A stretch of DNA of 23,538 nt from a virus: positions 1 to 23,538 of IMG/VR virus record IMGVR_UViG_3300021964_000550; one strand, 5' to 3'. Below are positions 1,650 to 23,325 of the stretch, piece after piece. The notes beneath the pieces were generated by a model. It ran no database searches, was not told where the DNA came from, and worked only from the letters and a program-made list of their open reading frames with translations. How positions within the stretch are numbered: position 1 is the first letter of the stretch; each line of letters starts with the position of its first letter. A program made the translations under genes and the position numbers.

Positions 1650-3227
1650 TTATACAGTATCTAAGTCAGAAACGAAGATTTTTCCGTAGAATTCAGGACG
1701 TAACATCTTCTTAGCGTATCTTGTCATGATCCCTTTACGTGGAGTAAAGTTTGTTGGATCGTACACTAGAGGTGTCATGATTAATGGTACATATGGAGCA
1801 TATACAGCGCCAGTTTCAAGGAATTGAGATCCTCTGAAACCAACTAAGATAGTATTCTCAGTCATGTATGGGTTTTTGTATACTCTGTAACGGCTGTTAA
1901 GCTGTCCAACTTTCTGTACTCCCATTGCAAAATCCATTTGATCACCGTCAGTATCAGCAGCATATCCTGGAATTGATTCTAAGATTGTAGCTACTGAAGG
2001 AGAACATACTAGGAAGTTTGCTCCACCTCTTAAAGTTTTCTGGTGAATTTTGTTAGATACTTTTTGGATTTTAGTTCCTAAAGTTTGGAACCATTGTCCT
2101 TGAGTATTGTAGAAGTCAGAACTAGCGTTAGACCATGCAGATCCATTCCACTGTTTGTTGTTCTCAGCTGACCACTTTTCAGTTGTTCTTGCATCTTGAA
2201 TTAACATATCTAAGATCTCTAGATCGATTTCCATTGAGATATACTCACTTAATAGTGAAGTTAACTCAGCTTCTGCGTCTACAGAGTGATAAGCGTTAAG
2301 ATCTTGTGCGAACTCTGGAGTCCATTGTGCTTTTAACTTTCTAGTCTTAGCAACAACAGCCTCACTTCTTAACTCAACGTTAATCTCTGGGATTGTGATT
2401 GAGTTAGCAGTAGTATCTTCAAAGTCACCTCTTGAGTTATCAGCAGGTTGTTTGTGATACTTTACGTCTCCAGTTACAGTTGCAGTTGAAATTGCAGAAC
2501 CAGAAACAACAAATACTACGTTAGATCCTACTACGTCAGTTAATTCTGGGTGTGTAGTAATGTCTCCTCCGTTGTCATCTAATATTCTAAATGCTCTAAC
2601 TCCTTTGAAGTCTCCTCCTGATAAGTCACTTGTAGCGACTGATACAGTAAAGAATTCTGCAGGATCTAAATCAGCATTGTATCCTAAAGATGCAGATGAA
2701 GCAGAACCAGTAGCTTTGCTAGTTAATTCGATTGAAGCAGTGTTCAATGAATATCCGAAAGAACCTCCTCCGTATAGACCTCCTGAAGGATCAACGTCTA
2801 CACCGATTTTAGATTCAGCAGTTGATACGTTACCGTACATGTTACCGTCTGCAGACTTGTCTAATCTATCGTTTCCATATTTGAAATCTAGATAGAATAC
2901 AAGACCTGAAGGTAAGTTCATTGGTTGTACAGAAACGAAATCTTTTGCAGCGATTTGAGCGAATACCTTTCTTACTAAAGGTAAAGCAACTCCTGCCCAC
3001 TGCTCAGATCCACCAGCAGCATTGCCAATAGCATTTGCGCCAGTTTGTGATTGTTCAGCTACGATTTGTTTAGCTTGGTTTTCAAGAATTTGAGCCATTA
3101 CTGGTGACTCTTTTTCTCCAAGACCTTCTAACAAACCTGAAGCATTCCATTTGTCAGCTAAACGACCTGCATCAGCTTGTAAGCTTTTGAAGTTGTTTGA
3201 GCTTTCTAATAATGAATTAATTTCCAT
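1650..3227 (-). CDS. 23: Major capsid protein gp23
   Basis: The 525-residue protein (T4 gp23 is 521) forms the hexameric shell of the head. Features shared with T4 gp23 include an early ILENQAK segment (T4 has IFENQEK), the VQPMNLPSGLVFYLDFKYG segment (T4 VQPMNSPTGQVFALRAVYG), and RKLKAQWTPEFAQDLNAYHS followed by DAEAELTSLLSEYISMEID. Towards the end come YRVYKNPY, ILVGFRGS, GAVYAPYVPL and a TRYAKK segment. T4 gp23 is trimmed by gp21 after an (L/I)xE site; candidates here are residues 6-8, 32-34, 36-38 and 47-49. Local GC is visibly higher than in neighbouring genes, as expected for a very highly expressed gene. It follows gp22 by 32 bases with no promoter octamer between them, so the two should share a message. 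The start has no Shine-Dalgarno but an A/T-rich leader. Confidence 0.96.
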   Translation of the reverse strand: MEINSLLESSNNFKSLQADAGRLADKWNASGLLEGLGEKESPVMAQILENQAKQIVAEQSQTGANAIGNAAGGSEQWAGVALPLVRKVFAQIAAKDFVSVQPMNLPSGLVFYLDFKYGNDRLDKSADGNMYGNVSTAESKIGVDVDPSGGLYGGGSFGYSLNTASIELTSKATGSASSASLGYNADLDPAEFFTVSVATSDLSGGDFKGVRAFRILDDNGGDITTHPELTDVVGSNVVFVVSGSAISTATVTGDVKYHKQPADNSRGDFEDTTANSITIPEINVELRSEAVVAKTRKLKAQWTPEFAQDLNAYHSVDAEAELTSLLSEYISMEIDLEILDMLIQDARTTEKWSAENNKQWNGSAWSNASSDFYNTQGQWFQTLGTKIQKVSNKIHQKTLRGGANFLVCSPSVATILESIPGYAADTDGDQMDFAMGVQKVGQLNSRYRVYKNPYMTENTILVGFRGSQFLETGAVYAPYVPLIMTPLVYDPTNFTPRKGIMTRYAKKMLRPEFYGKIFVSDLDTV

Positions 3228-4449: not shown

Positions 4450-5028
4450 TTAAGCTCTTAAAATATCGTTAATTATAGAGTCTAATTTACTAAATTTAGA
4501 TACCTTAACTTTACCCTCTTGAAGTGATATAGGGTTCATAAAAGCACCATGGGTAGAAGGATTAGATACAAAGTCCCAGCATACTAGTTCAAAGTCTGGT
4601 TGTACCTCTAAAGTTCCTTCTGATGTTTGTTGAACTGATCCTGTTCCTCTTGATGAGATTCCTATAGTATGACCAGCCTTTATTATTTCTTTTACAATAT
4701 TACCGGCAGGAGTATTTAATAATTCTACCTTACCCATTAGGTCGTTTCCTTTCCAGTATAACTCTTTTACTATGTGTGAAGCGTTCTTTAGAGAGACAAC
4801 AGGAGATTCAGGATGATCCAATTCTCCGAAGGCGTTTCCTTTATTAACAAACTCATCTACATATTTTTTCGCTTCTCTTTCTAATATAGCTTTAGAATAA
4901 GTTCTACCGTTTTGGTTTTTTGCAATTGCTCTTTGCATTACACCCTCTACTTCGAAAGTTCCAGGCTTTTCCTTAGACTCTCTAATAGTTGGTTTAAACG
5001 GTGTAACGTCTACTAATAGTTGTGCCAT
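4450..5028 (-). CDS. 21: Prohead core protease gp21
   Basis: A 192-residue homologue of the T4 prohead serine peptidase (T4 gp21 is 212 residues). In T4 it cleaves scaffold, core and capsid proteins after (L/I)xE before DNA packaging. The expected catalytic landmarks are visible: GELDHPES with His72, a second conserved-type His85 in NASHIV, and the serine motif GISSRGTG with Ser125/Ser126. The early VEGVMQRAIAKNQNGRTYSK segment is typical of this fold. The start is one base after the stop of the 471-residue core protein gene, whose A-rich lysine codons directly precede it. It ends the transcription unit that begins at 7501. An IRE site at residues 15-17 could serve for self-processing. Confidence 0.94.
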   Translation of the reverse strand: MAQLLVDVTPFKPTIRESKEKPGTFEVEGVMQRAIAKNQNGRTYSKAILEREAKKYVDEFVNKGNAFGELDHPESPVVSLKNASHIVKELYWKGNDLMGKVELLNTPAGNIVKEIIKAGHTIGISSRGTGSVQQTSEGTLEVQPDFELVCWDFVSNPSTHGAFMNPISLQEGKVKVSKFSKLDSIINDILRA

Positions 5029-7531: not shown

Positions 7532-9427
7532 TTAATTATCTAAATCCTTAAGTTGTGTTTCATCTAGCATTTTTGATGGAATTTCTTCTTTTTTCTCAAA
7601 AATTAAGCTCTTTTTTGATTCCATTGAATCTTTTATTCGATGATATATTGCCTGAGTAGTTAGGTTTGTTTCGTTTACGTTATCATTATCGGAAGGAAAA
7701 CCACCGTGCATACCTTGTTTACCTAGTCTATCTCTTCCTCCAACAGGATCATTGTTAGTTCCGTATACAGACATCTTCTCTTTAGGTCTTCCGCCTTCCG
7801 GACCAGGTTGACCATATTCACTATAACCAGCAGGAAGGTTAGCAGGCTCTCCACCTTTAGGAGTTGCTGTAGCTCTTCTTCCGTACATAGAAGCTAAATC
7901 GTGAGGAGTACCGTAAGAAGTACCAGATTTAGCAGGATCGTTACCTTCATTTTCAATTTGAGCTATTCTAAATAAACGTTTAGAGTCCTCTCTTACTAGA
8001 TCTCTCATTTCATTATACTGATCTTCAGATAAATTAAATATGTGATCGTAAATATAGTCAGAAGAGAATAATTTAGTATCTTTCATTTGATTAGCTAAAT
8101 CTATCTTTTCTTTTAGTAACGCTACTTTTTCTTGTTCGTAAATGACTGAAGGGTTAGTTAACTTAATCTCAAAGTTAGTTAAGCTTTCTCCTGTAAATCC
8201 TTGAGTATATAAATGTACTAGAGCTATCTTAGTTAACTCTGATTCCATTATTTTTTGTATTCTTTCTACAGTTCTTGCAAATCTTATATCTTCTGCAGCT
8301 AGCGTTGCTTTACCGTTTAAGTCTCCTTCGTATCCGAAATATGCTTTCGGTATTTTGAGAGCAGCAAACATTTTAGCCTGTAAGTATTGAACGTCATTTA
8401 CTCCGTCGTATTCTAATCCTTTAGTAGTTTCAATTCTAGTAGAAGTATCTCCTCCTCTAACAGGTAGGTAGAAATCTTCCATCATATTCTGCATATTGAA
8501 ACGTAAGTTGTATTGACCAGTTTGAGGATCCACATAAGGAGTCTTTTTCATCTGGTTAATAGTTTTTTGCATAAACTGCTCAACCTCATTTGGTGGAATT
8601 GCTCCTACGTTAATATAGAACATTCTCTTTTCAGGAGCTCTCATTATTCTATGAATTAACATAGCATCCTCCATTAAAGTTACTTGTTTAAATATTTTTC
8701 TAGCAGGCTCTAAATAAGAACGTCCGTAAGGTAAGTAGTTAGTATCTGAGATTAATCTAAAATGAGCTACCTCGTAGTTATCTAAATTAATAGTTCTAGA
8801 ATCTCTTTTAGGAATATAGTTAGGATCAGCAGAAGAAGCTATACCTTCAGGGTCTATAGTAAAAGTTACTTTAGCTGGTGCTTCAGGATCTTGTCCTTCA
8901 TGTCTAACCATATGATAGACTGTATATGGAAGTACATTATAGACACCGAATTTTTCAGCTATTTCCAACTTTAAGAAAAAATCTCCATACTTACACATAT
9001 TTCTAGTCCACGACCATAAGTTAAACTCTATGTTTAATACATCGTAAAATAAATTATAAAGTATTCTTTGAATATTTTCATCTGAGGACTTAATTGCTAA
9101 AACTTCATTTTGATCGTTTTTCAATGTAGCCTCGTCAGCTATAATATCTAATGCTGAGGCAATAATAGGATCTGTGTCCATAGCCTCATAATCAGAATAT
9201 AGTTGAATTCTTAACGTTTGATAATTAAGATTAGGATTAAAGATATTTTTGTTGTTATAGATATAAAGTCTACTGAATCTATCAACAAGAGAATTTGTTT
9301 GGAATTTACCAGTAGTCTGTATTTGATTAACATCAGCTATCTTAAGCTGGTTACCACCTACGTTTCTGACTACTACGTCGGTAGAGAAAAGTCTCGAAAG
9401 TCTACCAAAAAGAGATTTGTCCGCCAT
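7532..9427 (-). CDS. 20: Portal vertex protein gp20
   Basis: A 631-residue portal subunit (T4 gp20 is 524). The portal is a dodecameric ring at one head vertex through which DNA is packaged and to which the neck attaches. The N-terminal third has YSDYEAMDTDPIIASALDII. The central region has IHRIMRAPEKRMFYINVG, MMEDFYLPVRGG with a following IETTKGLEYDGVNDVQYLQ, and KMFAALKIPKAYFGY, the typical gp20 core. The extra length lies in a C-terminal Gly/Pro-rich, probably disordered tail (about residues 505-590) ending in a charged helix. It is alone in its transcription unit, with a promoter octamer 17 bases upstream. In T4, genes 18 and 19 separate 17 from 20; here the portal follows gp17 directly. 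Confidence 0.95.
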   Translation of the reverse strand: MADKSLFGRLSRLFSTDVVVRNVGGNQLKIADVNQIQTTGKFQTNSLVDRFSRLYIYNNKNIFNPNLNYQTLRIQLYSDYEAMDTDPIIASALDIIADEATLKNDQNEVLAIKSSDENIQRILYNLFYDVLNIEFNLWSWTRNMCKYGDFFLKLEIAEKFGVYNVLPYTVYHMVRHEGQDPEAPAKVTFTIDPEGIASSADPNYIPKRDSRTINLDNYEVAHFRLISDTNYLPYGRSYLEPARKIFKQVTLMEDAMLIHRIMRAPEKRMFYINVGAIPPNEVEQFMQKTINQMKKTPYVDPQTGQYNLRFNMQNMMEDFYLPVRGGDTSTRIETTKGLEYDGVNDVQYLQAKMFAALKIPKAYFGYEGDLNGKATLAAEDIRFARTVERIQKIMESELTKIALVHLYTQGFTGESLTNFEIKLTNPSVIYEQEKVALLKEKIDLANQMKDTKLFSSDYIYDHIFNLSEDQYNEMRDLVREDSKRLFRIAQIENEGNDPAKSGTSYGTPHDLASMYGRRATATPKGGEPANLPAGYSEYGQPGPEGGRPKEKMSVYGTNNDPVGGRDRLGKQGMHGGFPSDNDNVNETNLTTQAIYHRIKDSMESKKSLIFEKKEEIPSKMLDETQLKDLDN

Positions 9428-9455: not shown

Positions 9456-11030
9456 CTAATTTATTAACCAGGTAAGATCTTCATCACCGTGGTTAGTATT
9501 CATAATATAAGGATTATTCTGCATATTACCAACTGTTGTAATAACTGATGCATTTCTAGAATTTAGATTATTAAACGAAGAGAGTTGAGCTCTTGCTAAA
9601 TCCATTCCTTGTTGTCTCAACCTTAAGGCAGTATCTCTAACATATAATGCTGTTGCACAAGATACTAATAGATCATCATTATATCTATCTTGAGCTTGAG
9701 GTTTACCATTTTTCCATACGAATACTCTCATTTCACTAAGCAATCTTTTAGATTGTATAGTAACACTTTTTTCTCGAATATATTCTATCATTTTAGCAAT
9801 AACTAAAGGTCTTGTACGAGCAGACATAGTAAATCCTGGTACTAATTTATCCCTTTCAAACTTATGCATATATGATTCTACAGTTTCCATATTACTTTTA
9901 GCACTGTAGTAAAGGTTTCTATATTCTCTTTCCATTATCTGTTCTATAGTAGCCCATCCAATATTAGCGTTTTCTACTACTAATAATGCTTCATTATATT
10001 CTGATGCTATTCCTACTAAGAAGTTACCAAAATCCTTAGGAGATAATTTACCTTTATATTCAGCTACCTGAGTACATGTCTCTATATCAAATATATGAAA
10101 TGCCGAATAATCAGTAGAGTCACCTCTAGCAACGTCTGCTACAACCATGTAAGATTTAGAGTAGTCAACTCCTTCCCATACCCAAAGGTTACCGTCTATC
10201 CCTCTTCTTTCTAAAGGATCTTTTAAATAGGTTTGTTCGTAGTAAGCCATATCATCCGGTTCAAATACTGTATCACCAGAAGCTAAGAAATCACAGTCAC
10301 ATTCCTGTCCTGCCATTCTAGGTCCTAGGTCAGCATTTTGTTTTTCTCTCCAATTATCATCTCTTTCTGGATGTACTGTCCATGGTAATTTTATAGGTAG
10401 AAAACTATTTTCTCTTGATTCAGCTTTTTCCCATGTTTGATGAAACCAGTTACCAATACCGTTAGGAGTAGATAATGCCATACACTGTCCACCGGTAGCA
10501 AGTGTTTGCTGTGCAGCAGTAAATGTTTCTTCTATATTATCTATAAATGCGGCCTCATCTATAAGTAGGAGTGATACTGCTTCTGAACGTGCAGCATCTG
10601 CATTCGATGATTTAGCTGTTATTTTTGAACCATTTTTTAATCTTAGAGATAATTTGTTTTTCTCCTTAGCAGGTAACTTTAGCCATCTTGGTAACTCATC
10701 GTACATAAACATAGTCTTAGATACTAAGTTACGTGCAGTTGCTTGTGTTGTTGCTAATGCTAGTACGTTTTTATCTTTATGGAATAACATAAGCCATAAA
10801 CTATAGGCTGCTGCTAAAGTTGAAATACCTAACTGTCTAGACTTTAAGGTAATAATATATTGATGATCTTTGAAAAGATTAAGAACCTTTCCTTGAAAAG
10901 GATATAGATTAAAAAGTATACGTCCTCTAGTAGGGTGCTGAATGTAGCAATACTTCTTCATGAAGTACGCCGGATCTTTAGCGCACTTAATATACTCTTG
11001 TGCGATTATTTTTTTTATATCTTGTGCCAT
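9456..11030 (-). CDS. 17: Terminase large subunit gp17
   Basis: A 524-residue packaging motor (T4 gp17 is 610) with an N-terminal ATPase and a C-terminal nuclease. The ATPase has the Walker A position SRQLGIST at 64-71, Walker B LLLIDEA with Asp158 and Glu159, and the coupling motif ALSTPNG at about 185-191. The RNase H-like nuclease shows VVADVARGDSTDYSAF with Asp299, VVENANIG with Glu353, and YNDDLL with Asp452/453. These correspond to the T4 triad Asp401, Glu458 and Asp542. One oddity: T4 has SRQLGKTT, and here the lysine is replaced by Ile69, leaving Arg65 as the basic residue of the loop. The start ATG lies 5 bases after the stop of the nuclease-like gene. No gp16 small-terminase candidate was recognised in the window. 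Confidence 0.96.
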   Translation of the reverse strand: MAQDIKKIIAQEYIKCAKDPAYFMKKYCYIQHPTRGRILFNLYPFQGKVLNLFKDHQYIITLKSRQLGISTLAAAYSLWLMLFHKDKNVLALATTQATARNLVSKTMFMYDELPRWLKLPAKEKNKLSLRLKNGSKITAKSSNADAARSEAVSLLLIDEAAFIDNIEETFTAAQQTLATGGQCMALSTPNGIGNWFHQTWEKAESRENSFLPIKLPWTVHPERDDNWREKQNADLGPRMAGQECDCDFLASGDTVFEPDDMAYYEQTYLKDPLERRGIDGNLWVWEGVDYSKSYMVVADVARGDSTDYSAFHIFDIETCTQVAEYKGKLSPKDFGNFLVGIASEYNEALLVVENANIGWATIEQIMEREYRNLYYSAKSNMETVESYMHKFERDKLVPGFTMSARTRPLVIAKMIEYIREKSVTIQSKRLLSEMRVFVWKNGKPQAQDRYNDDLLVSCATALYVRDTALRLRQQGMDLARAQLSSFNNLNSRNASVITTVGNMQNNPYIMNTNHGDEDLTWLIN

Positions 11031-11035
11031 AACTT

Positions 11036-12178
11036 TTATTCTGTTTCATCTTCTTCAAGATAATTATTTGGAGCAGTTTCAAAAACACCTATTCTAGGAC
11101 CAAATAATTTCGGGCTAAACTTTTGGAAGTTTACTCCTTTACTTTTTAACTCTTTAGCCATTTTTTCTGCTGTGCCTTTTGTGTAAATGAATTTTCCATT
11201 ATTACCAGGAAGCTTACCTCCTCCAAAATCATGAACCATGAAATGCTTAAAACCTTCCTCACTTTGGTACTTTATAAAATGCTCTAGACCTACAGCTATT
11301 ACTAATGAATTTGCTGAGTTAAAATCCGAACTACTTAAAGAACTTAGTCCGACTCTATTTAAAACTGCATTAAATGCTGATACTGCTTTATCTTTATGAT
11401 CTTTATAAAGTTCTGCGACTAGAAAGCTAATATCCTGTAAGTCGTAACTAACTCCTTTGTAAACAGGTTTATTTTCTCCTTCAACACCTAATTCTCTAAA
11501 AGCATCAATAAACTCTTTATTACTACTTAAAGCACGTGAGTTAGATCCTAGTTTAGCTCCTTGACCTTTTACTTCGAATTCTTCATTATCAATTGCTAAA
11601 TCTCCTTTACCAGAAGCGTTGGTTACATTGTCAAATAAAAGTATCAATGCTAGTTCTCCCATTCCTACTCCTCTTTTCTTTTCGTCTTGAGCTGTATGCC
11701 TGAAAATTGCTTTAACTACATTAGTAGGAAGATTAGTTTGTGCAGAAATATCGTCGATTATATTACCGCCTCTATCTGAAGTATTAAATTTAGCTCCTCC
11801 TTTTTGTAGGTATTCAGAAAATTTTTTAGAGTCTTCTATAGGTAGATCTTCTATAATACTTTGAATTTGTTGAGAATACTGTTTATATATTTTGTCACCG
11901 TATCCTTTATCCTTTACTTTATTTCTAATTGATCTATAGTTACTAAAATTAGTTACTCTTTGATAAAGTTTTTTAATTTGTATATCATCAAGTGGAGCAT
12001 CAGATATAAAATCAATTATATCTTTTTTAGTAATTTCTTTCGGCTCTTGGTCTTCCTCTTTAACAAGCTCAGAAATAAGTCTATCTAGTATAGCTTTATC
12101 TTCCGGATTATTCATATCCGGTACACCTGTTTTAGTTCTCCAGGCCCATTCTGTGTATAGTTTGTCTGTTATATTCAT
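11036..12178 (-). CDS. PD-(D/E)XK nuclease-like protein
   Basis: A 380-residue protein whose middle carries the spaced residues of a PD-(D/E)XK nuclease. Glu175 is in GMGELALILLFDN, Asp193 in GKGDLAI, and Glu202 and Lys204 in FEVKGQGAKLG. The strand-turn-strand look and the Gly-rich continuation resemble restriction-type nucleases. The N-terminal 160 residues are helical and charged and could be a targeting or oligomerisation domain. It lies directly upstream of gp17 (5-base gap) and abuts the EF-hand gene, so it is co-expressed with packaging genes. Possible roles are DNA trimming during packaging or host-DNA degradation. T4 gp17 has its own, unrelated nuclease domain, so this would be an additional activity. 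Catalysis is inferred from motif spacing only. Confidence 0.68.
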   Translation of the reverse strand: MNITDKLYTEWAWRTKTGVPDMNNPEDKAILDRLISELVKEEDQEPKEITKKDIIDFISDAPLDDIQIKKLYQRVTNFSNYRSIRNKVKDKGYGDKIYKQYSQQIQSIIEDLPIEDSKKFSEYLQKGGAKFNTSDRGGNIIDDISAQTNLPTNVVKAIFRHTAQDEKKRGVGMGELALILLFDNVTNASGKGDLAIDNEEFEVKGQGAKLGSNSRALSSNKEFIDAFRELGVEGENKPVYKGVSYDLQDISFLVAELYKDHKDKAVSAFNAVLNRVGLSSLSSSDFNSANSLVIAVGLEHFIKYQSEEGFKHFMVHDFGGGKLPGNNGKFIYTKGTAEKMAKELKSKGVNFQKFSPKLFGPRIGVFETAPNNYLEEDETE

Positions 12179-12739
12179 TTAGTATCTTCCTTCTAGATCT
12201 TCTTCGTCCATTTCATTACCTTTCAAATCGATAGCATATCCGTATCCTTCTTTAGCATCGTCTCCGTCTCCATAGTCGCTATAAACTCCTCCTGAAATAA
12301 AATATCCGTTAGGATACTTTTCGATAGATTCTATTCTACCGTCATCATTAGGATCAAAATCTCCTATTTCGTATGTTTTACCTCCTACTGTAAGTTTCTT
12401 TAACTTTTTAGGTTTGAATGAAGGTTTATCGTCTTTAGATTTGTTTTTAACATATTCTGCAAACTGTCTATCTTGTATAGCACTAAGTTCTGGGTGAGAT
12501 TGAATACCGTTTTTTCCTACCTCTACAGACTGTATATTATTTTCATATCCTGGAGTATCACTATACCTAATAGATGCTTCCAGTCCTAATTCTTTAGCTT
12601 TTGCAACTAACTCCTCAGCATTTTTTAATTGTTCTTCTGGGGTATGTCCAACTACGGTCATACCTTCATTTACAGATCTACTGTTGGCAGTAAGTTTATT
12701 CTCTACTAAGAATTTTTTAAGGTCAAAATTATTTTTCAT
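12179..12739 (-). CDS. EF-hand-loop protein, likely virion-associated
   Basis: A 186-residue protein. The N-terminal segment MKNNFDLKKFLVENKL ends in LVE at 11-13, a gp21-type cleavage form. Residues 129-140 (DPNDDGRIESIE) make a complete 12-position EF-hand loop: Asp1, Asn3, Asp5, Gly6, Ile8, Glu9 and Glu12. It is followed by an aromatic Gly/Asp-rich C-terminus (PNGYFISGGVYSDYGDGDD). One loop without an obvious second partner suggests a structural calcium site rather than a classical paired EF-hand. The gene abuts the nuclease-like gene with no gap and follows the acidic-tailed gene by 14 bases. Function is unknown; incorporation into the virion is inferred. Confidence 0.7.
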   Translation of the reverse strand: MKNNFDLKKFLVENKLTANSRSVNEGMTVVGHTPEEQLKNAEELVAKAKELGLEASIRYSDTPGYENNIQSVEVGKNGIQSHPELSAIQDRQFAEYVKNKSKDDKPSFKPKKLKKLTVGGKTYEIGDFDPNDDGRIESIEKYPNGYFISGGVYSDYGDGDDAKEGYGYAIDLKGNEMDEEDLEGRY

Positions 12740-12753
12740 GTCTGTTATTATTA

Positions 12754-13806
12754 TTATGCTTCTGGTTCTTCACCTGCTTCAAAATCAACTGGTTCACCTG
12801 ATAGATCGGCTCCTCCTTCTTCTCCTCCTGCGTCATCCGGTTCTGGAATATCAGCAGTTCCTCCTCCTTCACCACCGGGGAAGTCTCCCCCACCGGTACT
12901 AGCATCATCTACATCCTCCCCAGAGGCTGCATCATCGCCTGCTCCTTTCATTGGACCTTCTTTGTACAGTATAGAAAGTTTATCTAAAGCTTGTTGATAG
13001 TCGTTTATTTTATTAAGATAGTACCTTTTACCCATTATCTGAGCTTCAAATGTTTCACCTGTCCATTTTAAAATATAATCTTGTCCGTTTTTAAGATTAA
13101 TTCTGAACGAAGAAGGACGAGGTGATATCCAGTCAATTGAGTCAACAAATTGTTTAAAGTCTTCAGTTTGTAGTTTTATTAATGCCTGTCTTAAAGAAGG
13201 AAACTTACCTAACATAATATCAGTAGCATCTTCTAATACTGTCTCTTCTGGAGCATCTGTGTTTGGTTCTTCCTCAGGTACTGGTTCTTCTTCTATTTCG
13301 TCTAATAAAGATTCATTTAATGTAGGTAGAGCTTTAATCTTGTCTACTGTTTCTGACATAATTCGTCTCATCTTCATTAATTCATATTGATCAGGTCTTT
13401 CGATTCTTAAATATCTTTGAAGTTTTCTAAAGTTAGTTTTAATAAGTTCAAATAGTTCTCTTGCATTTTTATCAGTTCTAATATCCTTATTATTCATCAA
13501 CTTTTTAATATCTAAAATAATATCATTAAAACTAGTATAGATACCTTCAAATGATGGTAACTTAATAACTTTATGTCCTATTGACCCTCCTTCATTATCT
13601 CCTTTTTCTTTCACATAACGATATAAGGTTGTCATATCTTTATCTACAAAGTCTCTACTAGGGTCCGGTGATACACCGTATCTTGATTCAATACTTTTTT
13701 GTACCTTAGGGTCTAAATCTTTAAAAGAGATAGTGTTTTCTCTTTCTTCCTCTTGTATAAGAAGTTTACCGTAAGTTTCTAATATAAGTTTTTCTAACCT
13801 ATGCAT
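12754..13806 (-). CDS. Acidic-tailed protein, candidate internal head protein
   Basis: A 350-residue protein beginning MHRLEKLILETYGKLL, with ILE at 8-10, a gp21-type site in an amphipathic helix. A helical part covers about 40-165 (TSFNDIILDIKKLMNNKD, FRKLQRYLRIERPDQYELM). A Glu/Pro-rich linker at about 170-190 is followed by a compact domain (about 192-285) with WISPRPSSFRINLKNGQDY and TGETFEAQIMGKRYYLNKI. Residues from about 288 are a very acidic Gly/Asp/Glu-rich tail. It starts one base after the stop of the 1005-residue gene, whose lysine codons provide the A-rich upstream sequence. No enzymatic motif is seen. The structured region could be a nucleic-acid or protein-binding domain with an acidic tail acting as a DNA mimic. 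Confidence 0.7.
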   Translation of the reverse strand: MHRLEKLILETYGKLLIQEEERENTISFKDLDPKVQKSIESRYGVSPDPSRDFVDKDMTTLYRYVKEKGDNEGGSIGHKVIKLPSFEGIYTSFNDIILDIKKLMNNKDIRTDKNARELFELIKTNFRKLQRYLRIERPDQYELMKMRRIMSETVDKIKALPTLNESLLDEIEEEPVPEEEPNTDAPEETVLEDATDIMLGKFPSLRQALIKLQTEDFKQFVDSIDWISPRPSSFRINLKNGQDYILKWTGETFEAQIMGKRYYLNKINDYQQALDKLSILYKEGPMKGAGDDAASGEDVDDASTGGGDFPGGEGGGTADIPEPDDAGGEEGGADLSGEPVDFEAGEEPEA

Positions 13807-19425: not shown

Positions 19426-20001
19426 CTAATCTATCTTTGACCTAATGTATTTAAGATACTCTTTAATTTCTGTAGACAGTTTAGATTTAACGGCTTGATC
19501 GTTGTTATTCCAGGTTTCTATATCCCCTTGTTCCGTCACATACGTATTAGTATATTCTAAAGATTCAGATGCCCATTCCTCGAGTTCATTAGCAAATTTA
19601 GTTAGGTTTCCTTTTTTAATTTCCTTTACATAACTATCGTATAATCCATTTCTTTTTAACTCAGCTTCAAATGCTACAAAACAATCTAAGCACATTTTAT
19701 TTATCTTATAGACTTGTATACTGAGGTGATTATTAATGGGTTTGCTACATTTAGGACAGGCATAAGGAACTTTTACTAACTTCTTAGCAGAATCTAATTT
19801 AGTAATATTCTGTTTAATACCGTTTTTGATAGTCCACTTCTTTCCAGACTCTTCCCATATATCGCCTTCTTCATAGCTAGAATGACTACGTCTATAACCA
19901 GTTTGAGATTTGGTTTTTGAAGTGTAGTCTTTTTTAACTAAATTACGTATACGATTTACATCTGAATGTTTGAACTCCTTTTTAAGAGTGTTATCACTCA
20001 T
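19426..20001 (-). CDS. Zinc-ribbon protein, unknown function
   Basis: A 191-residue protein with two CxxC knuckles, CPKC at 82-85 and CLDC at 104-107, about 18 residues apart, forming a probable zinc ribbon. The N-terminal 30 residues are basic and helical (KKEFKHSDVNRIRNLVKKDY). They are followed by EGDIWEESGKKWTIKNGIKQ, which reads as a short beta unit, and the C-terminal 80 residues are helical. The start overlaps the HAD gene by 8 bases and the gene closes its transcription unit. The mix suggests a DNA- or RNA-binding or structural protein. I know similar zinc-ribbon proteins as hypotheticals in marine T4-like phages; no specific function is supported. Confidence 0.72.
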   Translation of the reverse strand: MSDNTLKKEFKHSDVNRIRNLVKKDYTSKTKSQTGYRRSHSSYEEGDIWEESGKKWTIKNGIKQNITKLDSAKKLVKVPYACPKCSKPINNHLSIQVYKINKMCLDCFVAFEAELKRNGLYDSYVKEIKKGNLTKFANELEEWASESLEYTNTYVTEQGDIETWNNNDQAVKSKLSTEIKEYLKYIRSKID

Positions 20002-20560
20002 AACCTAATTCTTTTAATTTTTCTAAAACAGGAGTTATATCCCCTTTTTTTACTCTTAGAGCTATTCCACCTTTGGATGCCCATTCATTTATATTAGATT
20101 TTTTATCATCTATTAATATACTATTCTCATTAGCATATCGCTGTTTATCTGAAGAATAAGCAAATATGACTTTCGGTTTAGGGTTTAATTTATTTCTAAC
20201 CCATAAATTTTTACCTAACCTAGAAGTATTATTTCTAGATGGAGAGGTAAGTACTTTAGGATTATATTTACTAATAAAATTCCATAACTCTTCTCCTCTA
20301 GGCATCCAATCCATTCCAACCCAAAAAGCTACTCCGACTATACCGTCAATAAAGTTCCAAAATTCTTCTGGTCCAAATATATCTTCAAAGTCTTTTGGTT
20401 TATTTACTTTTTTAATATCCTTTAAAGGGTAGTACTTAGGTCCTACCTCTTGTAGTTTCTCATGAAACTTTCTTTCGAAATCTGTTAATACTCCATCCAT
20501 ATCACAATATATCTGATATTTAGGAGGTTCATTTAATAATTCTTTTAAACTTTTTTTCAT
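19994..20560 (-). CDS. HAD-superfamily phosphatase, deoxyribonucleotidase-like
   Basis: A 188-residue protein with the HAD motifs. Motif I is CDMDGVLTDF with the nucleophile Asp20 and acid/base Asp22. The motif II region is VLTSPS with Thr105/Ser106. Motif III is a lysine in the VRNKLNPKPK area, and motif IV is ILIDDKKSN with Asp151/Asp152. Small HADs with DxDGVLxDF are often 5'(3')-deoxyribonucleotidases that recycle nucleotides, which fits a phage, but substrate cannot be read from sequence. The N-terminus MKKSLKELLNEP has LNE at 9-11, the (L/I)xE form, though a proline follows. It lies 5 bases after the nucleotidyltransferase gene and overlaps the zinc-ribbon gene by 8. Confidence 0.85.
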   Translation of the reverse strand: MKKSLKELLNEPPKYQIYCDMDGVLTDFERKFHEKLQEVGPKYYPLKDIKKVNKPKDFEDIFGPEEFWNFIDGIVGVAFWVGMDWMPRGEELWNFISKYNPKVLTSPSRNNTSRLGKNLWVRNKLNPKPKVIFAYSSDKQRYANENSILIDDKKSNINEWASKGGIALRVKKGDITPVLEKLKELGYE

Positions 20561-20565
20561 AACCT

Positions 20566-21765
20566 TTAATTTTTAATTTTGTCTTCCCAATTTCGGAAAG
20601 TAATATTACCTACTAAGTAAGCTTCTTTTTCTAACTCTAATAACTTATCATCTTCGTTAGTATCTGTTGTTTGTATATTTCCTAATCTACCTTCTAGGTT
20701 TTGTATATGATGAACCATTTCATGAGCAAAAGATCTCATAACATCTTTAGGGTGTCGTCCTTCTACATACAGTACTACTTCTTTATTATTAGGATCGTAG
20801 TGGGCTGTTTTGCCAAAAAACGATTCTGATTCTGCAATATCTCTTCTTATTTTTATTTCAGGTAAAGGTTGAATATTCATACCTTCATCTAACATATATT
20901 CTAATATAGAGCCCATGAAAGGAGTATAATCAAATCCTACCTTATCGTCTTGGTGCTTTAAAGATACTTTAATATGGTCATTTTTATATTCTACATTAAC
21001 ACCGTCTGTACCTATTTGGTTCTCGATACGTTTAAATAAAGTTAGCAAGTAGTTTTTATCTGCTGAAGGAAGTATTGGCTCAGTAGAGAGTTTATTTCTA
21101 CCATTATCTTCAGATGTATCTTCTACAAAATATTCACTAACAAAAGTAGATATATTTGTACTTATTATTTCAGCTACTATTTTATCTTTCAAATCGTTTA
21201 ATATATTTAATATTTCTTCTCTAGATAACTGTTTAGGAAAAAAGTCTATGATCTTATCTAAATTACCTGATAAAATACTCTTTCTGAAATCTGTTGCTCT
21301 TACTCCTGAACCAGGAGCAGACTGTAATGCTAATCCTTCTACATTTTCTACATTATTAAATGTAGTAACTCTTTTTAAATCTACGAAATCTTCTTCACCT
21401 CTTAAACCAGTTACTGCTACAAATTGATCTTCAGGATACTCTCTTGCATAATCTTTAGCAGCAAACATTGGATTCTTTTGACCATCTACTATTTCTACGT
21501 TACCTAAATGTTTAATATAAATATTCCATATAGCAGTAGCTTCAATTTTATCTATACCATTTCTTTCTCCTCCTCCTATAAAGATAATAACTTTATCTAT
21601 TTTAGGTTTACTATTAGAACCTCCATTGAATAAGCTAGAAGCTTTCTCTTTATAATCATCTTTATTATATAAAGTACCATTATAAGAACCGTCGAGTAAA
21701 GATTTTACTACGTTAAAATGACCTCTATGAGGTGGTTTAAAAGCTCCTGGATATAATGCTATCAT
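20566..21765 (-). CDS. Nucleotidyltransferase fused to a zincin-like metallopeptidase domain
   Basis: A 399-residue two-domain protein. Residues 1 to about 175 are a nucleotidyltransferase of the cytidylyltransferase-like family: YPGAFKPPHRGHF with HxGH at 13-16, a glycine-rich IFIGGGERNG, and PGSGVRATDFRKSI, corresponding to the family's (S)GxxxR signature. Such enzymes activate NMN, phosphopantetheine or sugar/lipid phosphates with a nucleotide. A helical linker leads to residues about 300-399, which hold FAHEMVHHIQ, an HExxH zinc site with His348, Glu349 and His352, and a downstream glutamate cluster (LELEKEAYLVGN, Glu377/379/381) suitable as third ligand. The start is fixed by an ATGA overlap with the kinase gene. 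The N-terminal activity may serve NAD metabolism, which an ART would draw on; this is speculative. Confidence 0.82.
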   Translation of the reverse strand: MIALYPGAFKPPHRGHFNVVKSLLDGSYNGTLYNKDDYKEKASSLFNGGSNSKPKIDKVIIFIGGGERNGIDKIEATAIWNIYIKHLGNVEIVDGQKNPMFAAKDYAREYPEDQFVAVTGLRGEEDFVDLKRVTTFNNVENVEGLALQSAPGSGVRATDFRKSILSGNLDKIIDFFPKQLSREEILNILNDLKDKIVAEIISTNISTFVSEYFVEDTSEDNGRNKLSTEPILPSADKNYLLTLFKRIENQIGTDGVNVEYKNDHIKVSLKHQDDKVGFDYTPFMGSILEYMLDEGMNIQPLPEIKIRRDIAESESFFGKTAHYDPNNKEVVLYVEGRHPKDVMRSFAHEMVHHIQNLEGRLGNIQTTDTNEDDKLLELEKEAYLVGNITFRNWEDKIKN

Positions 21766-22703
21766 GCTAAGAATGATTGAACTTTACTGTCTATTTCTGC
21801 AGGAGAAGAATGTTGTAACTTCTCTTGGAATAAAGGACTAAATAACATCTCTGCTATACTCTCTAAAACGTCTTCATGATCTTTATCTCTTTTAGCTTTA
21901 GAGTCTCTATACTTATTAATAGCGTCCCTTAACTTATCATCTCCTGGGCCAGCACCAATCTTTTTATAGGTCTTTAAGAATGCAGTTTTTACAGCTTTGT
22001 CTTCAGATCTATTACCTCTATCGTAATCTATATCTTGTACCGCTTTATTAAACTCATCTTCTTCTTGTTTTGACATTACTACCGGCTTAAAAAAACTACT
22101 TCCTTCTATTCCATTTGCTTCATTATATTTTGAAAGATAGTCTTTTATTCCTGTAGGACCGTTTTTAGCAGCTGTATCAAAAGCTTTTATTTCTTTATCA
22201 TATTGACCGCCTCTTAAATTTACAAAAACAGAAAGATTGCCTCCTAATTTTTTATTAAATTCTCCTATTTTTTGATATGCATTTCGCCAAGTAGAGAATA
22301 CTGCGGGAGCAGGAATATTTCTATCTGCTCTAGCAAAGTTAGAAATATAAGATATCATAGGATGAGTATATACCATAACCATATAAACTTTATAACCCTT
22401 GTTTAAAAGATTATTTAAGTTTTTGTCAAATCCTGTTCCCGATGCAGTAGTATCCCAAACGAAACTAGTTCCTTCTGATGCTGCTGCTGTTACGTCCTTG
22501 TTGACTTGTCGACTGGCTGCTCCTAGATTGTTGTGATACGGATGGTCCGGATCCTCTACGTACTTGTCCGGGTTGAACTGTTCTAGGCTGTCTAATGATA
22601 GTTGGTTGAGTAGGTACGTTTTCCCTGCTCCAGCTCCTCCCGCCATTATTACCGCTTTCGGGCCTGCCGTAGCCTCTAATATTAGGTCTGATAGTTTTAT
22701 CAT
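21762..22703 (-). CDS. P-loop kinase, zeta-toxin-like
   Basis: A 313-residue protein with Walker A GGAGAGKT at 22-29, preceded by a hydrophobic strand AVIMA. FNPDKYVED follows at about 43-51 and the strand SFVWDTTASGTGF at about 80-92, typical of zeta-toxin/polynucleotide-kinase-like P-loop kinases. Another strand with a conserved-looking segment is KVYMVMVYTHP near 105-115. Substrate is unknown; nucleotide, nucleic-acid-end and sugar-nucleotide kinases share this layout. The N-terminus MIKLSDLILEA has ILE at 8-10, a capsid-targeting-like site. Its first 79 codons lie inside the lipoprotein gene in another frame. The P-loop itself is in this overlap, so a later start would destroy the enzyme and the overlap cannot be explained away. 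It overlaps the next gene by 4 bases. Confidence 0.82.
   Translation of the reverse strand: MIKLSDLILEATAGPKAVIMAGGAGAGKTYLLNQLSLDSLEQFNPDKYVEDPDHPYHNNLGAASRQVNKDVTAAASEGTSFVWDTTASGTGFDKNLNNLLNKGYKVYMVMVYTHPMISYISNFARADRNIPAPAVFSTWRNAYQKIGEFNKKLGGNLSVFVNLRGGQYDKEIKAFDTAAKNGPTGIKDYLSKYNEANGIEGSSFFKPVVMSKQEEDEFNKAVQDIDYDRGNRSEDKAVKTAFLKTYKKIGAGPGDDKLRDAINKYRDSKAKRDKDHEDVLESIAEMLFSPLFQEKLQHSSPAEIDSKVQSFLA
22465..22703 (-). other. Dual-coding (overprinted) region
   Basis: These 239 bases are read in one frame as residues 208-286 of the lipoprotein and in the +1-shifted frame as residues 1-79 of the kinase. GC rises to about 51% over 22501-22680 (my count, 92 of 180), against 23% and 32% in two neighbouring 60-base blocks I counted. 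No promoter octamer lies upstream of the kinase, so both come from one message. Confidence 0.75.
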
Positions 22704-23325
22704 TGTTTAACTTATTAGGGTTATTATATTCTCTTATTTTTATTTTATTATTACCTCTTTTAAGTAAATCAACAGAACGTCTTATTTCTATTTCTTTATT
22801 TTCTGGTATATTATTTATTCTTGATTTGTTATAACTTCTTTGAACTAAATCACTATACTGACTTCCTCTTCTAGTTTTAGCATAAGCTATATTTTGTCTA
22901 TTCCATATATGAAAGTTACTATAGTATGGGTCCCAACTATTCCATCCCCAGTTTCTAAATCCATAAGGATCCCAGCTATTAAATCCTCTCCATCCATAGT
23001 TAAAGTTCCAGTCAAACCAGAAGTCGTATCTGTTTACATATAGATCCCAAGGTGAAATATTTCTTCTATACTTGAATAAAAAGTTTCTATTATAAAAAGA
23101 ATAGTACCATCTAAGGTCTTGATTTATAGCATACTGAGTGTAATCCCATCTAAATCTGTTATCGTTATTAAACTTTCTGTATAATCCAAACTCACTATCA
23201 ATCACATCTACATTTATACCTGAAGAAGTTATAAATGCTTTAGGAGTATGATTAAGAGTAGCTAGTTTAAAATTACCACAGCTAGCCAATAAAAATAATA
23301 CAAATAAAAATGTTATTCTTTTCAT
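22465..23325 (-). CDS. Aromatic-rich phage lipoprotein
   Basis: A 286-residue protein with a lipoprotein signal peptide: MKR, a hydrophobic stretch ITFLFVLFLL and the lipobox ASC with Cys16, followed by GN. Residues about 55-140 are rich in Tyr, Trp, Phe and Asn, with an internal repeat (FNSWDPY at 115-121 and WNSWDPY at 128-134). From about 180 onward the protein is a basic, Arg/Asn/Ser/Gln/Pro-rich, low-complexity tail. It would be exported and lipid-anchored in the host envelope, where phage lipoproteins often block superinfection or help lysis; the actual function is unknown. The short SD-less leader carries the promoter octamer 13 bases upstream. The last 79 residues overlap the kinase gene. 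Bacteroidetes-type signal and composition support that host group. Confidence 0.8.
   Translation of the reverse strand: MKRITFLFVLFLLASCGNFKLATLNHTPKAFITSSGINVDVIDSEFGLYRKFNNDNRFRWDYTQYAINQDLRWYYSFYNRNFLFKYRRNISPWDLYVNRYDFWFDWNFNYGWRGFNSWDPYGFRNWGWNSWDPYYSNFHIWNRQNIAYAKTRRGSQYSDLVQRSYNKSRINNIPENKEIEIRRSVDLLKRGNNKIKIREYNNPNKLNNDKTIRPNIRGYGRPESGNNGGRSWSRENVPTQPTIIRQPRTVQPGQVRRGSGPSVSQQSRSSQSTSQQGRNSSSIRRN

Follow-up and report, generated by a model that had tools for sequence, protein, structure and literature searches.

A predicted nuclease gene beside the large terminase gene

The window (the whole 23,538-nt stretch of IMG/VR record IMGVR_UViG_3300021964_000550 that was analyzed, from an uncultured T4-like phage) carries, on the minus strand, genes for the major capsid protein gp23 (1650..3227; Pfam PF07068, E 2.4e-81), a gp21-type prohead protease (4450..5028; Pfam PF03420, E 1.1e-32), the portal protein gp20 (7532..9427; Pfam PF07230, E 3.1e-76), and a gp17-type large terminase (9456..11030; Pfam Terminase_6N, E 4e-12; phrog_2, E 1.8e-49). 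Immediately upstream of gp17, and also on the minus strand, lies a gene of 380 aa with an ATG start (11036..12178), whose end is separated from the start of gp17 by 5 nt, the distance given in an earlier, sequence-only reading of this DNA. Next come an extra gene with the N-terminal tag FDLKKFLVEN (FDLKKFLVENKL; 12179..12739, minus strand) and a gene of a conserved family (12754..13806, minus strand; FPSLRQALIKL...DFKQFVDSIDW), here called the partner gene. The partner gene and gp17 constitute the conserved upstream and downstream flanks of the gene, and the extra gene sits between partner and nuclease.

The sequence-only reading had proposed that Glu175, Asp193, and Glu202-x-Lys204 fit the pattern of a PD-(D/E)XK nuclease, and this proposal held up. 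The codons for Glu175 (11654..11656), Asp193 (11600..11602), and the E-x-K motif Glu202-Val203-Lys204 (11567..11575), all on the minus strand, were verified, and E175, D193, E202, and K204 are invariant both in an alignment of 14 sequences and in one of 56 sequences that includes the window protein (where G172 and G192 are also among the invariant columns). Within the cluster to which the window nuclease belongs (49 distinct members, the window protein and that of Flavobacterium phage immuto counted in), only these four of the charged residues beyond position 42 reach ≥95% conservation, and a conserved His is absent. The sequence, as such, contains an acidic pair, a (D/E)-x-K motif, and a helix Glu in the arrangement of PD-(D/E)XK enzymes, a pattern that, as judged from the alignments, exceeds chance.

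An AlphaFold2 model built on the 56-sequence alignment (mean pLDDT, 85.2) has a helix at residues 175 to 181, which Glu175 opens, and strands at residues 185 to 187, 194 to 196, and 199 to 205, an order that fits the one expected of a PD-(D/E)XK core. On the question of fold, then, the modeled alpha-beta-beta-beta order carries the predicted catalytic residues, but matches to known structures are only weak: a Foldseek search of the PDB with this model returned none of 62 rows at E ≤0.001, and the first model likewise returned none. In VIA-align, restriction enzymes account for four of the five rows with >100 aligned residues (among the rows listed), all of them weak, namely, MspI (1sa3; Z 3.6, 145 residues aligned at 5.7 Å), HinP1I (1ynm; Z 3.4, 154 residues at 6.0 Å), 3ndh, and NaeI (1iaw). 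The weak matches to enzymes of the MspI/HinP1I kind cover residues 136 to 366. A BFVD search with the first model matched two unnamed uncultured Caudovirales proteins (E ~1e-6).

At the sequence level, the window nuclease matches no Pfam family at E ≤1, no NCBIfam family, and nothing significant in the PDB; a match to phrog_1657 (“head morphogenesis”; E 0.0034, residues 47 to 160) was too weak and was discarded. The protein shares with MspI/HinP1I-like type II restriction endonucleases the order of catalytic residues and the predicted secondary structure (the structure matches being weak), but it is fused to a phage module, its sequence match to them is not significant, and a Pfam scan of 18 window proteins revealed no methyltransferase family. 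Assignment as a nuclease is well supported by conservation and moderately by the model, and we regard the window protein as very probably a PD-(D/E)XK nuclease; the gene is classed as such on its sequence signature, with DNA cutting as its probable activity.

A constant module joined to exchangeable bodies

The nuclease divides into a constant N-terminal module (~residues 1 to 40; 12059..12178, minus strand; MNITDKLYTEWAWRTKTGVPDMNNPEDKAILDRLISELVK) and a variable body (~residues 41 to 380; 11039..12058, minus strand), which holds the nuclease core (~residues 172 to 205) and belongs to cluster 0 of at least 10 body clusters. In relatives from viral contigs whose gp17 is 82 to 95% identical to that of the window, the module is 68 to 95% identical to the window's, while the identity of the whole nuclease ranges from ~70% down to ~30%, or the alignment extends over the module alone. 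A second module type (MNLID...), ~44% identical to the window type, is common in loci anchored on gp17.

To limit bias, a sample of 80 loci (among the matches listed) was fetched by gp17 alone. The module opens the gene 5′ of gp17, at a distance of 2 to 12 nt, in all 69 of these loci with a readable gene start, and none of the 69 is an empty allele; in the remaining 11, the contig ends within the gene (including L119, where an in-frame stop lies 6 nt from that end). Each of 12 large records, selected for the presence of a module gene, has a single clear copy, and one of them shows a second, weak match (E 0.03). A module-like stretch (45% identity over 31 residues, E 3e-4) also occurs in an unannotated, 484-kb uncultured jumbo phage (LR756508.1).

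By BLAST single linkage (E 1e-5), the 172 distinct module proteins (identical proteins were merged before counting) form at least 10 body clusters, a number that is a lower bound, with 80 of 541 relatives kept in the module-based scan and with single linkage merging subfamilies (e.g., clusters 2 and 3). Truncated genes (L192, L205, and L212) and one without a 5′ end (L006) were left out, as was L206 (227 aa) from the clustering only. Bodies of different clusters are not connected by BLAST. Conserved acidic and Lys residues occur in cluster 1 (E114, D140, E149, and K151) and cluster 2 (D235 and K250; numbering of the cluster representatives), and our reading of such motifs is that the remaining clusters are probably also nucleases.

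Phages whose gp17 proteins are 97 to 99% identical bear unlike bodies. When the 113 loci in which a full gp17 adjoins the gene were compared (contigs that need not all represent different phages), bodies of different clusters were found in 39 of 113 pairs with gp17 ≥95% identical and nonidentical nucleases; the highest gp17 identity accompanied by different bodies is 99.1% (L117/L128), and the DNA flanks of these two loci are 98.5% and 96.8% identical. In 11 chosen pairs, DNA homology stops at codon ~35 to 43 and restarts between 20 nt before and 4 nt after the gene end. The module itself is matched at the DNA level in 10 of the 11 (the exception being L023/L106), and the pair formed by the window and L098, both in cluster 0, has an additional 61-nt match within the body. 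The module and the flanking genes are a conserved backbone, and the body is a cassette that is traded for unrelated bodies among close relatives; the gene is, in short, a cassette-swapped, polymorphic predicted nuclease.

Sharp replacement of a cassette between near-identical flanks could also be the work of a selfish, homing-type nuclease that cuts alleles with other bodies, after which repair would copy the cassette across the conserved flanks. Homing genes, however, are usually optional and free-standing; here, the readable gp17-anchored loci include no empty allele, each large record has a single clear copy, and every body is fused to a constant N-terminal module. Even with a similar replacement at another site in cultured cyanophages (see below) in its favor, we consider homing quite improbable.

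Neighboring genes and a possible role in packaging

The invariable proximity to gp17 in the gp17-anchored loci is an argument for an accessory nuclease of packaging, in which the module would dock on the terminase or the portal and the body would trim or cut DNA at the start or end of packaging. The position beside gp17 is that of gp16 in T4. A replacement for gp16, the small terminase, has this position alone in its favor: no small-terminase family, nor any T4 gp4 family, is matched by the window nuclease at E ≤1 in Pfam or PHROG, although remote homology to gp4 may escape such searches. In phage HK97, the HNH protein gp74 is encoded next to the terminase; an HNH packaging protein of this type was rejected, on the lack of both a Pfam family at E ≤1 and a conserved His. 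A closer precedent is T4 gp4, a TnsA-like nuclease with a restriction endonuclease (REase) fold, described in passages of PMC7824862 as required for packaging, such that the view, taken in the sequence-only reading, that a second nuclease in the packaging unit is unusual for T4-like phages was too strong. HK97 gp74-type HNH proteins and T4 gp4 are, like the predicted nuclease here, linked to head or packaging functions, but gp74 has another fold (HNH) and similarity to gp4 is not detectable. Moreover, we know of no case in which packaging nucleases of either type are interchangeable between unrelated bodies.

Sampling by module rather than by gp17 gives a different picture of the neighborhood. 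Of the loci in the module-based scan, 74 had a complete gene followed by >150 nt of DNA (at most ~3.4 kb being available, and several loci having little); a gp17 match lies downstream in 7 of the 74 and is directly adjacent in 1. L207, L224, and L246 had too little downstream DNA and were left out of this test. In immuto, gp17 lies 1.4 kb downstream of the module nuclease. The partner gene lies ≤3 kb upstream in 175 of the 180 loci with ≥600 nt of upstream DNA and abuts the nuclease gene in 133. Abutment on gp17 is, as such, lineage-specific, and the upstream partner is the more constant neighbor. The earlier placement of an extra nuclease within the packaging unit consequently stands for the window lineage, in which the gene adjoins gp17, but does not extend to module genes in general, where abutment was found in only 1 of 74 loci. 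That the body is swapped under near-identical gp17 proteins, and that 73 of these 74 genes do not abut gp17 while the partner gene stays linked, led us to reject a packaging enzyme as the first choice; the protein is probably not one, and we consider this role unlikely.

The same flanks bear on a second question, whether each body is accompanied by a dedicated immunity gene, as in polymorphic toxin systems. Among 98 gp17-adjacent loci with ≥600 nt of upstream DNA, 73 (spanning 7 body clusters) have the partner gene abutting upstream and gp17 following downstream, which leaves no room for one; the others comprise 22 loci, including the window, with something between partner and nuclease and 3 in which no partner was found, and in such loci an immunity gene may exist as a local exception. 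Both an immunity-gene model and membership in the polymorphic toxin class were rejected on these grounds.

Related predicted nucleases in cultured phages

The module nuclease has a cultured representative in gp078 of Flavobacterium phage vB_FspM_immuto_2-6A (immuto). Bodies related to those of clusters 3 and 5 are found in cyanomyoviruses (S-RIM44, S-SSM5, S-CREM1, and S-SCSM1; PHROGs 8438 and 1462), where these nuclease-like genes adjoin, or lie one gene from, NMNAT/cytidylyltransferase genes and where one is labeled a virion protein. They differ from the module genes in their genome position and, in the proteins examined, in having no N-terminal module. The L090 body type also has relatives among Sinorhizobium phages and in one Stenotrophomonas phage; in all, the six body relatives examined from outside the module phages are without the module. 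In four cyanophage records, the related bodies follow mazG at a short distance, and the 6 to 9 kb examined contain no annotated gp17, a location that also counts against a packaging role.

Two S-RIM44 isolates (KX349294 and KX349295) carry two body classes at one site after mazG, with flanks that are 99.3% and 90.4% identical and with the whole gene exchanged; body exchange therefore occurs in cultured phages too. This is the replacement at another site that lends the homing explanation some of its appeal. The gene next downstream in these isolates contains KWDGAP, which resembles a nucleic acid ligase motif.

The body type shared with Sinorhizobium and Stenotrophomonas phages (KADFNL...VFISHKKAGG) is that of L090 to L094. 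L090 matches phrog_13937 as well as proteins of Sinorhizobium phage phiM12 and Stenotrophomonas phage vB_SmaS-DLP_6, all labeled hypothetical.

Candidate prohead-protease processing

In T4, virion proteins lose N-terminal propeptides of 7 to 65 residues when the prohead protease gp21 cleaves after L/I-X-E, and the T4 internal proteins combine targeting sequences of 10 to 19 residues with divergent mature parts (both as given in passages of PMC9026906). By this consensus, the window module has a candidate site near its end, at I35-S36-E37 (12068..12076, minus strand). An L/I-x-E occurs at residues 30 to 50 in 170 of the 172 module proteins, a count that is not independent evidence, because all members share a homologous module and the motif can be inherited with it; in 98 of the 170, moreover, the first such motif falls within a predicted helix (at residue 32 or 33) and may have a structural role. 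A site at module Glu10 was rejected as the general cleavage site, with an L/I-x-E at residues 5 to 13 in only 53 of the 172.

The bodies, unconnected by BLAST between clusters, are more telling than this site count. Across 66 representatives, L/I-x-E was observed 152 times in the bodies against 215 expected (observed/expected, 0.71; z, -5.2). The lowest ratio among nine control patterns was 0.92 (for L/I-x-x-E), and L/I-x-D, L/I-x-N, and E-x-L/I were above expectation; in 266 control ORFs taken from these loci, L/I-x-E itself was observed 1,041 times against 944 expected (ratio, 1.10). Clusters 0 and 2 show a clear depletion, clusters 1, 3, and 4 a weaker one, and clusters 5, 6, and 7 none; individual bodies retain 0 to 6 sites (the window body has two, at residues 110 and 376). 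Among the control ORFs, 39 with a tag-like site at residues 4 to 16 had a ratio of 1.00, i.e., no depletion, which speaks against a general effect in tagged proteins or, alternatively, against those tags being targeting sequences.

Each of the 12 large module-bearing records encodes one gp21-type S77 prohead protease. In the window, gp23 has an I47-L48-E49 that falls 2 residues from the equivalent of T4 residue 65, where the T4 protein is cleaved, provided that the alignment (which begins only at residue 66 of the window protein) is extended without gaps. A further observation comes from S-SCSM1, in which gp282, a module-less relative of cluster 5, is annotated as a virion protein and lies beside a virion NMNAT. 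Mass spectrometry identified 45 virion proteins of this phage, and NMNAT-like proteins occur in cyanophage virions (PMC9602691, in passages that do not name gp282). The cluster to which gp282 is related is not itself depleted in L/I-x-E. For module-bearing phages, no virion proteome turned up.

These data also bear on an exclusion nuclease that would act inside the cell, remaining unpackaged and cutting superinfecting DNA, with the module serving only to hold the partner protein. Polymorphic bodies would suit such a defensive role, as would the linkage of the partner gene in 175 of 180 loci; but the specific depletion of L/I-x-E in the bodies and the virion annotation of gp282 are left unaccounted for, and we think this explanation improbable. 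Targeting of the protein to the head, followed by removal of the module, is the reading that the site and depletion data support, with a likelihood that we place slightly above even. A nuclease packaged together with the genome needs a restraint, which counts against a cargo role.

A proposed capsid-targeted nuclease payload

The reading that we prefer, and to which we give about an even chance, is that the locus encodes an exchangeable nuclease payload targeted to the capsid. The module would be a propeptide that brings the protein, a type II restriction-endonuclease-like PD-(D/E)XK body behind ~40 constant residues, into the prohead; the gp21-type protease would cut at L/I-x-E and remove the module; and the freed nuclease would stay in the head, to be ejected along with the DNA. 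Variation among the bodies would follow variation in their targets, the simplest target being foreign DNA in the infected cell, whether that of competing phages, satellites, plasmids, or the host. The phage's own genome would be spared if it lacked the recognition site or had it masked. That the nuclease acts on foreign DNA, and that the phage protects itself by avoiding the site, is a more tentative part of the proposal than is delivery in the head.

Among known systems, the closest are the T4 internal proteins that bear targeting sequences and, by analogy, polymorphic toxins. T4 IPI, IPII, IPIII, and Alt similarly have a constant N-terminal capsid-targeting sequence (CTS), divergent mature parts, processing by gp21 at L/I-x-E, and poor conservation between relatives (according to passages of PMC9026906). 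The present proteins differ in that the module is ~40 rather than 10 to 19 residues long, the payloads are predicted nucleases, the module end is a recombination boundary, and cleavage is predicted from sequence. With virion evidence consisting of the annotation of one module-less relative, we have not filed the gene as a T4-type internal protein. Polymorphic toxin systems follow the same modular logic, with replacement of the C-terminal part behind a constant N terminus, and the module nucleases have both of these features; the difference lies in the immunity gene, for which most gp17-adjacent loci have no space. It is conceivable, and we put it forward tentatively, that a large uncultured lineage of the T4 superfamily carries at a fixed locus a phage version of polymorphic toxins, in which a capsid propeptide is joined to interchangeable, injected nucleases directed against the DNA of competitors and in which site avoidance takes the place of an immunity gene. 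We found no description of such a locus in the literature, as judged by titles and abstract openings.

If the proposal is correct, a single recombination event can give the weapon that these phages inject a new specificity; it would resemble colicins or polymorphic toxins, except that the virion delivers it. Competition among these phages could then be tested directly with an isolate, Flavobacterium phage immuto, and the module could serve to find further cargo of the head. Even if the capsid claim is set aside, a nuclease gene that is present in every readable terminase-anchored locus and yet is replaced between phages whose terminases are 99% identical speaks for strong diversifying selection next to the packaging motor.

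Other genes of the window

The extra gene between partner and nuclease (12179..12739) is absent from the four relatives that were compared by DNA, in all of which homology breaks at positions -561 to -563. Its protein is mostly shared with L023 and L075, and only its first 19 to 43 residues are shared with L004, L028, L047, and L060; this family perhaps represents a second combination of tag and cargo.

Several other window genes were recorded in passing. A zeta-toxin-like kinase (Pfam E 5.6e-12), whose first residues are MIKLSDLILEA and which has an L/I-x-E at residue 10, is encoded by the ORF at 21762-22703. This ORF overlaps by 239 nt the minus-strand ORF at 22465-23325, which lies upstream on the same strand and whose start resembles a lipoprotein signal by eye. 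An NT5C-like nucleotidase, with a weak Pfam match, is encoded at 19994-20560, and the product of the ORF at 20566-21765, which has no Pfam match and is named by resemblance, has a start like that of NMNAT/NadR and contains a HEMVHHIQ motif.
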